Source: Vineibacter terrae
Lineage (GTDB): Bacteria > Pseudomonadota > Alphaproteobacteria > Reyranellales > Reyranellaceae
DNA: 45,465 bases
Assembly: GCF_008039615.1 (NCBI RefSeq)
Contig: NZ_VDUZ01000068.1
Coordinates: 1 to 45,465, forward strand
Reading direction: 5' to 3'
Shown piece by piece: positions 15,067 through 30,265 of this stretch; within the stretch, counting starts at the first letter, position 1; every line of letters starts with the position of its first letter. Made by a program: the position numbers and the translations under genes. The notes below the pieces were generated by a model. It ran no database searches and was not told the origin of the DNA. It saw only the letters and a program-made list of their open reading frames with translations.

Positions 15067-15672
15067 CTAGCGCGGCGGCAACAGCGCGCCGATGAAGGTG
15101 TAGGCGGCGTCCGGCCCGGCGGCGACCAGCGTCCACTCGGTGAAGTCCTCGGCGCTGGTGCAGCTGTTGCCGCCGCCTTGAAGGATCAGGGTGATCCGGG
15201 TGCCATCGCCGTTGCCGGGCTCGAAGATGCCGGTGCCGGCGATCCTTCCCGTCACGCTCCATTCCTTGTAGAGCCGCGGGCCCAGGCCGCCGGGACTCTT
15301 CTCCTGCCGCGGGTCGACCTCGAAGATCGCGATCATTTCGGGCCAGGCCAGCGACAGGGTCCCTGCCCGCCTGTCCCTGTCGCGGAACTCGAAGGTGATG
15401 CCGTCGGCCGTGCGCTGGACGTCGAGGCCATAGGCGCTCATCGTCGCGTGGAGACCCTTGAGATCGCCGGGCTCGGCGTTCCCGGTGACGAGCTCGGCCG
15501 TGGGCGCAAACCGCAGGCGGCCGATCTCGCCGCGCTTGTACGCATCGAGCTTGTCGGTCGCCACATGGCGCTGGCCGACATCCGTGCAGCAGGCACAGGC
15601 ATGCGCGCTGTCCGGGGCCATCATCGCCGCCGCGATCCAGGCCGCGACGGCGATCGGCGATCTCGACATCAT
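15067..15672 (-). CDS. Secreted protein with N-terminal ACACC motif, linked to selenoprotein
   Basis: A 201-residue protein I do not recognise. It starts MMSRSPIAVAAWIAAAMM and has a signal peptide ending about ADS-AHA, so it is exported. Directly after the cleavage site come three clustered cysteines (ACACCTDVGQRH), and a further cysteine sits near residue 165 (NSCTSAEDF). The rest is beta-rich (GITFEFRDRDRRAGTLSLAW, GTRITLILQGGGNSC). Its ATG at 15672 overlaps the stop of the selenoprotein gene (ATGATG), so it is the third gene of that operon. The exposed cysteines suggest a metal-binding protein or a thiol redox substrate of the upstream pair. That is inference. Confidence 0.8.
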   Translation of the reverse strand: MMSRSPIAVAAWIAAAMMAPDSAHACACCTDVGQRHVATDKLDAYKRGEIGRLRFAPTAELVTGNAEPGDLKGLHATMSAYGLDVQRTADGITFEFRDRDRRAGTLSLAWPEMIAIFEVDPRQEKSPGGLGPRLYKEWSVTGRIAGTGIFEPGNGDGTRITLILQGGGNSCTSAEDFTEWTLVAAGPDAAYTFIGALLPPR

Positions 15673-16199
15673 GCGGTCGTCTTCCCACCCTCCAGCAGGC
15701 TCACGATGCGATCGACGGTGGCGTCGGCGAGCGCGTGCAGCTCGGCCGTGGTGCGGTTCTGGATCGGATGCGGCAGGTAGATCAGCGCCGGGTCGAGGCC
15801 CAGCGAATCGCATTGCACCGCGGCGGCATCCGCGAACACTTCGGTCGTGACGTTGACGGCGGCGATGCCGCGTCCGTCCAGATCAGCGATGTCGTGCAGA
15901 CTGCACGATATGCAGGAGCCTCAATCGGCCAGCGCGACGACGGCGACCTGCGCCTCCGCCGCGATCTGCTGCAGCAGCGCCGTCGATGCCACGCGCGAGG
16001 GCGTCGGCTTGCGATAGCGTCTGGACGCGATGCCGCGCTCGTCGAGCCGCGCCTGCAGGCGGTCGATGTACTCGCTGCCGCGCAGCTTGCCGATGTCGAG
16101 CAGCGCCACGGTGGCGCCCTCAAGCGACGCCGGCGGCGGCGTGCGCGGCCGGCGCTGGCTGCCGGTCTCGGCGGTGGGATCACGCATAGAAAGGCTCAT
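15669..16199 (-). CDS. UGSC-family selenoprotein (in-frame UGA read as Sec93)
   Basis: A 176-residue protein if the TGA at 15921-15923 is read as selenocysteine. The reading frame stays open and protein-like on both sides. Before it is the Rossmann-like start ATVALLDIGKLRG and VAVVALAD. After it come GSCISCSLHDIADLDGRGI, TTEVFADAA and YLPHPIQNRT. The motif is therefore U-G-S-C-x2-C, the hallmark I associate with the UGSC (seleno)protein family. A SECIS-like hairpin follows the UGA. The start codon overlaps the stop of the thioredoxin-domain gene, and the stop overlaps the start of the secreted-protein gene, so all three are coupled. If not recoded it would be a 92-residue truncated protein. 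Function unknown; a thiol or selenol redox role is inferred from the U/C motif and its neighbour. Confidence 0.88.
15892..15923 (-). promoter_or_regulatory. Bacterial SECIS-like hairpin after UGA codon of UGSC gene
   Basis: The TGA codon occupies 15921-15923. After 12 nt, UCGUGC (15908-15903) pairs perfectly with GCACGA (15897-15892) around the loop AGUCU. The loop begins 19 nt after the UGA and has G as its second base. This fits bacterial SECIS rules (loop 16-37 nt from UGA, G in its first two bases). It is very close to the E. coli fdhF hairpin as I remember it (UGC-AGGUCU-GCA). Confidence 0.82.
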
Positions 16200-17653
16200 G
16201 GCTTGATCTCCCTGGTCACGGGTTGGGTCTGATCGCGAATGCCGGTGCCGGGCCAGCCGGCCAGGATGCCCGAGAACAGCCCGGCCGGACCGCCGGCGCG
16301 CACGACCAGCAGGCCACCGCGCCAGAACTTGGGCACCATCATGTCGGCGAACTTGGCCGGCATGCCCTCGGCGATGCCCTGGGCGCCGGCCACGAGATCC
16401 TTGCCTGGGCGCGTCGAATTAGCCAGCAGGCTGTCCTCGATGCGGGCGCGGTCCCAGCCGGCGGCGCGGAAGATCGCGTAGTGCTCGGGCGACAGCACCA
16501 GCATCGCCGCCGTCGCGCTGTAGAGCTTGGGGTGCATCACCGCCGATAGCGACAGCGCCAGCGAGCGCGACAGCTCCTCGGCCGTGCGCGAGCGCTGGTC
16601 CATGCAGGCCTGCAGGCCGTAGCCCTGGAACAGGGTCACCGCATTCCTGCCCGGCGCGATGCCGCGCGCCACCGACAGCGGCTGCCAGGCGGGATCGGTC
16701 TCGTCCTCGGCGAAGCAGCAGCTGATCTTGCCCGGCGAGCCGATGGTGGAGCGATCGATCTCGCCCGGCCGGCCGCCGCCGACATTGCGGATGATCAGCT
16801 GCAGCGCGCGACCGATGGTGAGGTTGGCGCGGTTGCCCTGGCCCAGCGCATTGATGCCCCAGTTCATGCCGATGGCGCGCGTGATGGGCCCGTTGACCAC
16901 GATCACCGGGCCGGAGAAGCAGGTGGTGCACAAGAGCCCGTGCATGGTGAAGACCGGATCGAGCGCCGCTTCCACCACCGCCAGCACCACCGGCATGTAT
17001 TCCGGCTTGCAGCCGGCCATCACGGCGTTGATCGCCACCTTCTCGACCGTGCACGGCGCCAGGTTGGGCGGGATCAGGCCGACGACCTCGTCGGGCTTGC
17101 GCGACGTGCCGGCCAGCATGCGCAGGATGCGCGCGTCGGTCGGCGCCACCACCGGCAGGCCGTCGGTCCAGCCGCGATCGAAGCAGGCCTCGGCCTCGTC
17201 ATCGAACTCGCCCAGGGTGACCTTGCGCGCGCCCAGGCCGGGGTTGCCGAAGCGGGCCACGAGATGCTCATGCACGCCCGGCTCGCGGCTCCGGGAACCA
17301 CAGCCGGGCTGGAACCCCGGCAAGCCCTCGCCCAGCCCCTGCAGGCCGGTGATGCGCTCCCATTCGGCGCGATCCCAGCCCACGGTGCGCGCCACCTCGC
17401 AGCCGGCGCTGAAGCGGATCAAGGTCGGCACGGTCTCGATGTCGTGGTGAAACGACTGCTCCAGCGCCGTGTCGTCGATGACCGCGAGGCCGGCCGGAAA
17501 GGCCGGATCGTCCTGCGTGTAGATGGCCAGCTTCTGGTCGCTGCGCGACAGCGCCCGCAGCACCGGCGTCACCAGCTGGCAGGTGTGACACTCCTCCTTG
17601 GCGAAGACGACGAAGCCGTCGGCAGGAGGGGCATTCATGGACACGGTGCCCAT
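16196..17653 (-). CDS. Thioredoxin-domain protein with large uncharacterised C-terminal domain
   Basis: A 485-residue protein. Residues about 10-110 are a thioredoxin fold with the active-site pair C22-H-T-C25 (KEECHTCQLVTPVL) and the cis-proline segment IETVPTLIRF. The remaining 370 residues are a domain I cannot name. It is rich in Gly and Ala and contains several cysteines (LLCTTCFSGP, ISCCFAED) and the conserved-looking stretch INAVMAGCKPEYMPVVLAV. The ATG at 17653 follows AAAAGGATGTTTCG. It is the first gene of the three-gene operon, and its stop overlaps the selenoprotein start (ATGA). It is a natural electron donor or acceptor for the Sec/Cys motif of that protein. No signal peptide is visible, so it is cytoplasmic. 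Confidence 0.85.
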   Translation of the reverse strand: MGTVSMNAPPADGFVVFAKEECHTCQLVTPVLRALSRSDQKLAIYTQDDPAFPAGLAVIDDTALEQSFHHDIETVPTLIRFSAGCEVARTVGWDRAEWERITGLQGLGEGLPGFQPGCGSRSREPGVHEHLVARFGNPGLGARKVTLGEFDDEAEACFDRGWTDGLPVVAPTDARILRMLAGTSRKPDEVVGLIPPNLAPCTVEKVAINAVMAGCKPEYMPVVLAVVEAALDPVFTMHGLLCTTCFSGPVIVVNGPITRAIGMNWGINALGQGNRANLTIGRALQLIIRNVGGGRPGEIDRSTIGSPGKISCCFAEDETDPAWQPLSVARGIAPGRNAVTLFQGYGLQACMDQRSRTAEELSRSLALSLSAVMHPKLYSATAAMLVLSPEHYAIFRAAGWDRARIEDSLLANSTRPGKDLVAGAQGIAEGMPAKFADMMVPKFWRGGLLVVRAGGPAGLFSGILAGWPGTGIRDQTQPVTREIKP

Positions 17654-17746: not shown

Positions 17747-18058
17747 CTAAAGCTCGAACGATTCAGGATCTGCATTCCAGAAGCTGAGGATGTCGACCGT
17801 GCGCGTTCCTTCGTCGACAGTATAGACAATCCAATACTGGGTTCTCCGACCGACGCGAAACAAATAGGCACGGTAAGGAGCGCCGATCAGCGGGAAGAAT
17901 CCCCATGTCCGCGGCGCCTCTCCGAGATTGAGCCGCAAGATGCGATCGAGGCGTTCAGTCTGCTCGGCAGCGAACACTTCGCTGTAGCTGCGAAGATAAG
18001 TGGCAAACTGATCAATCTGACGAAGGGCAGCTGGATCTATCCGTACACGGAAAAGCAC
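17747..18058 (-). CDS. RelE/ParE-family toxin
   Basis: A 103-residue basic protein with the ParE/RelE fold pattern: FRVRIDPAALRQIDQFATYL at the start, the Arg-rich middle APYRAYLFRVGRRTQYWIVYTVDE, and the end TVDILSFWNADPE. Members poison gyrase or cleave mRNA on the ribosome. It starts with GTG at 18058, 6 nt after the stop of a small upstream gene that is the likely antitoxin. The pair is therefore a compact type II toxin-antitoxin module. Which target it has cannot be told from the sequence. Confidence 0.85.
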   Translation of the reverse strand: MLFRVRIDPAALRQIDQFATYLRSYSEVFAAEQTERLDRILRLNLGEAPRTWGFFPLIGAPYRAYLFRVGRRTQYWIVYTVDEGTRTVDILSFWNADPESFEL

Positions 18059-30048: not shown

Positions 30049-30250
30049 CCCCCTCTGTCCGGTGACCTGAAAGATTGGTCGGCCGCGCAAGCGCGCCCGA
30101 CTTACCTCGTCGGTGGATCGCGCCGGCCAACCCGGTCGCGACCGCTTTCCAGAGTGCCATCCCCCCGCGGTCCGGTGGCCTGAGAGTTTCCGGGGCGGTT
30201 GCTCCTTCGGCGGCACGAAGCGGTGGCAACGTGCGCTCTCCCACGGGGAT
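30049..30250 (-). ncRNA. Tandem glycine riboswitch upstream of gcvT
   Basis: Two aptamers are readable on the minus strand. The first (about 30250-30168) has GGGAGAGCGC, CGCCGAAGGAGCAACCGCC and ACTCTCAGGCCACCGGACCG. The second (about 30166-30049) has ATGGCACTCTGGAAAGC, CCGACGAGGTAAGTC and ATCTTTCAGGTCACCGGAC. The paired CGAAGGAGCAA/CTCTCAGG-type cores and the short linker are those of the cooperative glycine riboswitch. It ends about 50 nt before the gcvT start codon. Confidence 0.93.
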
Positions 30251-30265
30251 CATCTGGCGGCCGCG

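Follow-up and report, generated by a model that had tools for sequence, protein, structure and literature searches.

A UGSC-Family Selenoprotein Gene of Vineibacter terrae and Its Conserved Partner Gene: A Putative Thioredoxin-Coupled Reductase

The window analyzed in this study is a 45,465-nucleotide stretch of Vineibacter terrae DNA (contig NZ_VDUZ01000068.1). The data support the gene at 15669–16199 of its minus strand as a genuine UGSC-family selenoprotein gene, the in-frame UGA (15921–15923) apparently being decoded as selenocysteine (Sec) at residue 93. On balance, the Sec93 UGSC protein and the product of the gene immediately upstream probably form a unit that works as a thioredoxin-coupled reductase, in the manner of the Sec subunits GrdB and PrdB; we infer the chemistry, and the role of the partner as substrate subunit. 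The original prediction had described a real selenoprotein of unknown function; the first part held, and the second can be narrowed to what would most likely be a thioredoxin-coupled selenol reductase.

The UGSC family was described in 2008 from ocean metagenomes, and its 255 Sec sequences (beside 21 with Cys) place it, in that one survey, among the commonest selenoproteins in environmental metagenomes; the same paper described a UGSC fusion to a domain named Unknown_1 and suggested a thioredoxin-like fold (PMC2398784). A 2026 review lists UGSC among the families with largely uncharacterised functions (PMC13188914). The UGSC literature searched (the portions covered of PMC2398784, PMC13188914, PMC9312934 and PMC9402790, with subscription papers mostly outside the search) gave no function, partner gene or relationship to GrdB, and likewise neither the thioredoxin of the partner nor a flavodoxin-like fold. 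The window gene adds to a family known since 2008; the partner, the electron supply, the kinship with GrdB and PrdB and the fold are apparently unreported in that literature, though Unknown_1 could be the partner itself.

The in-frame UGA and its recoding

Direct reading of the minus strand from 16199 to 15669 gave a frame of 176 codons plus stop with a single interruption, the TGA at 15921–15923. Read-through resulted in a product of 176 residues (M...ALAD-UGA-GSCISCSLHD...TTA-stop) with the motif U-G-S-C-I-S-C, in agreement with the predicted U-G-S-C-x2-C, in which Sec93 is followed by Cys96 (codon 15912–15914) and by Cys99 (codon 15903–15905), completing U-x-x-C-x-x-C. A search against UGSC models, proposed together with the prediction, gave a match to PF24696 (Pfam) at 115.6 bits, with a cut-off of 25 and an E value of 3.4e-33, spanning residues 5–170; the frame is protein-like on both sides of the TGA, as had been claimed. 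The NCBIfam equivalog NF041046 scored 103.2 bits, below its cut-off of 125, and the protein was therefore filed under PF24696 as a divergent member. The start/stop overlaps reported for both gene ends were found as two ATGA sequences of 4 bases each: the stop of the upstream ORF (16196–17653) sits within the UGSC start (16199–16196), and the ATG of the downstream ORF (15672–15670) overlaps the UGSC stop (15671–15669).

Seventy-six of the 77 listed UGSC places were retrieved, the remaining one (G205:C121) lying at a contig end. The Sec column contained TGA in 73 of these genes and a Cys codon in the other three (L093, L113 and L112), and residue 93 is thus conserved as Sec or Cys among the homologues. 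The family search read through stops and so had no bias toward Sec, while the profile search of genome contigs, which back-translated Sec as Cys, returned three Cys-type loci and is uninformative on the frequency of the Sec form. In the family alignment (A3) Cys96 is invariant; the third Cys, Cys99, is replaced by Trp or Ala in some UGSC subtypes.

Identity after the TGA was at least as high as before it in all eight pairs of close UGSC homologues (two of them pairs of fused genes, whose post-TGA part includes the partner domain), and the post-TGA differences in these pairs were concentrated at third codon positions. The window gene and five relatives shared 49–59% identity before the TGA and 49–58% after it. 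Selection at the protein level is apparently as strong downstream of the TGA as upstream. A sequencing error at this codon is very unlikely, since TGA occupies the same place in three paralogues of the host genome and in 69 genes from other genomes, and the hairpin described below fits.

The Sec machinery for which a search had been proposed is present: in the assembly examined (8.76 Mb, 135 contigs), selA, selB, selD and tRNA-Sec were over cut-off, all on one contig (C5), and ARAGORN reported a tRNA-SeC with anticodon tca. The same genome contains four UGSC genes with exactly one TGA each. UGSC was found in 28 of the 289 genomes of the class and in five of 398 genomes of the phylum, two of these five being among the 28. 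Of the 28 UGSC genomes, 27 had selA over cut-off, versus 14 of the 261 others (Fisher p ~1e-26, uncorrected for kinship); the exception, G011, is 77% complete and has four TGA-type genes with neither selA nor selB over cut-off. In four genomes, G575 (L111), G123 (L129), G091 (L130) and G057 (L095), a UGSC gene lies less than 7 kb from selA or selB. This distribution suggests that UGSC travels with the Sec machinery.

Among the genomes with Cys-type genes, selB was not found over cut-off in G413 or G543, while both selA and selB are present in G246. Only the clade of the window gene was used from the UGSC tree, which has long branches; the G413 gene falls within this nine-row clade (support 100/97), a position that would fit, as expected, replacement of Sec by Cys after loss of the machinery. 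The G543 gene (L112:8087–8422) has Cys at the Sec column and a TGA about 30 codons later, and is probably either a decaying gene or the product of an assembly error.

Automatic annotation was expected to split such genes, and two public records display this mis-annotation. The UGSC CDS annotated on plasmid p2-T1 of Acidovorax sp. T1 (L158) stops at the TGA, and on pFER4 of Paracoccus ferrooxidans (L163) two hypothetical proteins are annotated in place of the one gene. An annotated selB is located about 4.5 kb from the split gene on pFER4.

A SECIS-like hairpin was found at 15892–15908 of the minus strand, with a 7 bp stem (UCGUGCA/UGCACGA), a 3 nt loop, GUC (15899–15901), starting with GU, and 19 nt from UGA to loop, all within the published criteria for bacterial SECIS elements (PMC13188914, section 5). 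The 40 nt hairpin stretch was calculated at −10.8 kcal/mol. Taken alone it is unexceptional, with z scores of 0.00, 0.13 and −0.39 against dinucleotide shuffles of three window stretches, and 37 of 300 synonymous versions of its sequence folded equally well; tests of the hairpin in individual sequences were for the most part non-significant, the signal emerging at the level of the family. No SECIS family of Rfam was found at gathering score in the window, nor with a permissive search around the UGA.

The codon and folding tests were extended to 75 genes (73 Sec and two Cys, L112 being left out). Under synonymous codon randomisation z was negative in every one of the 73 Sec genes, and was +0.49 and −0.41 in the two Cys genes. 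The family mean z was −1.64 at the hairpin versus −0.51 to +1.06 at 21 other offsets, this sliding-offset control being run on 40 randomly chosen Sec genes of the 73. Ser at +7 was encoded by AGT in 45 of 45 genes and Cys at +7 by TGT in 16 of 16, whereas the partner ORFs used these codons for 65 of 1,530 Ser and 78 of 556 Cys residues; both codons preserve the GU of the loop. A base pair of the stem occurs as C-G in 48 genes and as G-C in 13; the UGxCTPAV type (12 genes) forms another stem in almost the same position. Judging by codon use, synonymous codons are chosen so as to preserve the hairpin across the family, a signal that offers a simple and strong check on Sec codons. The Sec machinery, the TGA shared by 73 of 76 genes and the kept hairpin bear out the prediction of a real selenoprotein.

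The partner gene, its electron supply and its neighbours

The gene immediately upstream of UGSC (16196–17653, minus strand) encodes a protein of 485 aa with an N-terminal thioredoxin-like domain and a domain with the signature GWxDGLPxVPPT; no Pfam family matched this protein at E ≤ 1. The conserved partner domain (16199–17218, minus strand; GWTDGLPVVAPT...) is about 340 residues long. An ORF comparison found it adjoining or fused to UGSC in 73 of the 76 genes, always on the same strand and with a gap of at most 212 bases; the three genes without it are L067, L077 and L132. At the level of gene order, UGSC and the gene preceding it were thus shown to make up a conserved two-gene unit. The 97 partner copies all agree at several Asp, Gly, Pro, Arg and Glu positions, and one Cys is present in 96% of them.

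Three arrangements of the unit were observed. The partner may stand upstream, often with an N-terminal extension carrying CxTC (26 loci; CHTC in the window); UGSC may be fused to the front of the partner, as in 14 genes, one of them in the host genome (contig C41); or UGSC may be followed by partner copies. The natural fusion of the host genome was modelled as a single chain with pLDDT 91.3 and pTM 0.92. Foldseek returned nothing in the PDB for this model at E ≤ 0.001, and searching the PDB by sequence, with UGSC or with the fused alignment, turned up no significant relative. At this locus (L119:5151–9108), the fused gene encodes 582 aa with TGA at the Sec column and a Cys directly before Sec (MGCUGSC), and after it come another partner copy and a thioredoxin-reductase-like gene; this natural single-chain version might lend itself to expression and crystallisation. 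Longer partner proteins occur beside aconitase X and DUF126 genes in Vibrio europaeus pVEu (L162) and Sporomusa termitida pSPTER (L166), and no match to the UGSC profile was found in these two stretches.

The thioredoxin-like domain of the window partner (17372–17605, minus strand), with CHTC at 17579–17590, matched the NCBIfam thioredoxin model at 3.4e-5, below its cut-off. Single extension sequences match thioredoxin weakly; a profile built from 15 of the 26 extensions picked up 47 different sequences in the PDB at E ≤ 0.01 (best 9.9e-7), every one of which bears the name thioredoxin. Nine loci that lack the thioredoxin fusion have a thioredoxin-reductase-like gene on the same strand, and all four of the genes tested matched TIGR01292 at 6.2e-53 or better, below the cut-off of that model. 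The gene order is trxB-trxA-partner-UGSC on a plasmid of Arthrobacter sp. ERGS1:01 and partner-UGSC-trxB on one of Roseovarius sp. THAF8, and trxB is found three genes before the partner on one of Variovorax sp. SRS16. The UGSC-partner pair often appears to carry its own electron supply, either as a fused thioredoxin or as a thioredoxin-reductase-like gene.

The neighbours of the thioredoxin-fused type (137 proteins scanned with Pfam) belong to common families only, led by short-chain dehydrogenases (eight). Near the other types (109 of 233 candidates scanned), pyridine-nucleotide oxidoreductases were found in 11, together with TRAP, tricarboxylate and ABC transporters and CoA-transferases. 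These transporter and CoA-transferase genes, seen around some relatives, hint that the substrates may be small organic acids taken up by the cell. Two UGSC genes (Natrinema and Arthrobacter) lie near phosphosulfolactate synthase and two partner genes (Vibrio and Sporomusa) near aconitase X, too few cases for naming a substrate. The partnerless UGSC gene of L132 adjoins a fused hydantoinase/oxoprolinase-type protein resembling caprolactamase subunits, a possible substrate hint.

Downstream of UGSC in the window, the ORF at 15067–15672 (minus strand; 201 codons), ATGA-coupled to the UGSC stop, has a signal-peptide-like start. It gave no Pfam match and no tblastn match in the other fetched loci, and was for the latter reason excluded from the unit. 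Elsewhere in the window, tandem aptamers of the glycine riboswitch type scored 68.7 and 38.9 bits at 30051–30253, and a candidate ParE-like toxin at 17747–18058 fell slightly short of its cut-off of 23 with 21.4 bits, both on the minus strand.

Relationship to GrdB and PrdB and predicted fold

TIGR01917, which models the Sec subunit of glycine reductase, was matched at E ≤ 1 by 27 of 53 UGSC proteins (best 3.7e-5), and the sarcosine, betaine and D-proline reductase models were matched by 20, 10 and 3 of the 53, respectively. No curated cut-off of PF07355, TIGR01917 or TIGR04483 was reached by UGSC; the window protein itself scored 13.6 bits with TIGR01917 (cut-off 602.2; E 0.023) and had no match to PF07355 at E ≤ 1. 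Comparison by hhalign with a profile of PrdB-like proteins (18 sequences from the same class) gave an E value of 3.5e-5 and a probability of 71.6%, with the Sec columns aligned. The U-G-S-C-I-S-C of the window protein fits U-x-x-C-x-x-C, the motif given for GrdB (PMC13188914). These matches point to UGSC as a remote relative of the Sec subunits of glycine and D-proline reductase.

The host genome also contains a PrdB-like protein (L145:1261–2469, contig C49) with an in-frame TGA at SPV-U-PFCTR, which resembles marine PrdB selenoproteins and is likely a further selenoprotein of this genome.

The model of the window protein (pLDDT 93.5), in which strands alternate with helices, places Sec93 immediately ahead of a helix. 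Eighteen PDB structures matched it at E ≤ 0.001, mainly of flavodoxin-like, TIR, SIS and related folds, with TM scores of 0.36–0.48. There was no thioredoxin among the 50 PDB structure matches listed, which speaks against the thioredoxin-like fold suggested in 2008; the fold of UGSC is predicted to be flavodoxin-like.

Proposed reaction, alternatives and comparison with known systems

For D-proline reductase, it has been proposed that the Sec of PrdB attacks a substrate carbon, that a Cys resolves the selenoether and that reduction of the Se-S bond follows; in glycine reduction, NADPH is used via thioredoxin reductase and thioredoxin (PMC3091704). By a comparable route, the partner domain would bind and activate a small substrate, and the Sec93 selenolate, at the start of a helix in the flavodoxin-like alpha/beta domain, would attack it with departure of the leaving group. 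Cys96 would resolve the selenium adduct to give a Se-S bond, which the CHTC thioredoxin domain of the partner would reduce, to be recharged in turn by thioredoxin reductase. With a partner, an electron supply and a mechanistic relative, what was a hypothetical redox protein becomes a testable two-component enzyme. A broader proposal, to which we give slightly less than an even chance, is that UGSC and the GWxDGLPxVPPT partner constitute an unrecognised branch of the glycine/D-proline reductase superfamily. Such a branch would amount to an autonomous module that has thioredoxin and thioredoxin reductase fused to it or encoded nearby and a new substrate-binding subunit replacing the pyruvoyl proteins, its up to eight diverged copies per genome reductively cleaving different small molecules.

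The UxxC motif would also suit a selenol peroxidase or a general thiol-disulfide oxidoreductase, acting in antioxidant defence or repair and not as a cleaver of specific metabolites. The linkage to thioredoxin and thioredoxin reductase would be equally useful to a peroxidase, and peroxidase activity of GrdB is, by its title, the topic of a paper cited in PMC3091704. An obligate and highly conserved second protein would be superfluous for a simple peroxidase, however, the up to eight diverged copies per genome (G187) suggest several substrates, and the predicted fold of UGSC is neither thioredoxin- nor peroxiredoxin-like, so that we regard this explanation as unlikely. Still less credence is given to the partner as the catalyst, with UGSC merely an electron relay or regulator. 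The partner is the larger protein and is strongly conserved (residues identical in 97 of 97 copies, a Cys in 96%), and some types have two partner copies per UGSC; but Sec is the proposed attacking nucleophile in the related GrdB and PrdB (PMC3091704), and a thioredoxin relay is already there as a separate domain.

A reading of the UGA as a plain stop codon, or as the result of mutation or sequencing error, leaving a truncated 92-residue protein or a pseudogene, appears extremely improbable. The frame does end at 15921 if recoding is disregarded, and the window hairpin is non-significant by itself; against this stand the TGA that 73 of 76 genes share at this codon, four such genes in the host genome, the presence of the Sec machinery, the selection seen after the TGA and a codon choice that favours the hairpin.

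Within its own family (PF24696/NF041046), the Sec93 protein has the full-length match and Sec in UGSC at the conserved column, but it is divergent and remains below the NF041046 cut-off. With GrdB, GrdF, GrdH and PrdB, UGSC shares Sec in U-x-x-C-x-x-C and, if the partner has the role proposed here, a second protein on the substrate side. The thioredoxin/thioredoxin reductase supply described for glycine reductase (PMC3091704) would have its counterpart in the thioredoxin and thioredoxin-reductase-like genes that accompany UGSC. UGSC is smaller, at about 170 residues, compared with C. sticklandii GrdB (Sec at 350 of 436) and PrdB (Sec at 152 of 242) (PMC3091704), and its partner matched no GrdE/PrdA-type models in the scans. 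The GrdE family PF09338 was found in none of the 289 class genomes, with the control silent too; the substrate side may differ from that of glycine reductase. The thioredoxin-fold UxxC selenoproteins likewise combine a UxxC motif with thiol redox chemistry; in UGSC, however, the predicted fold is flavodoxin-like, and thioredoxin is instead a domain of the partner.
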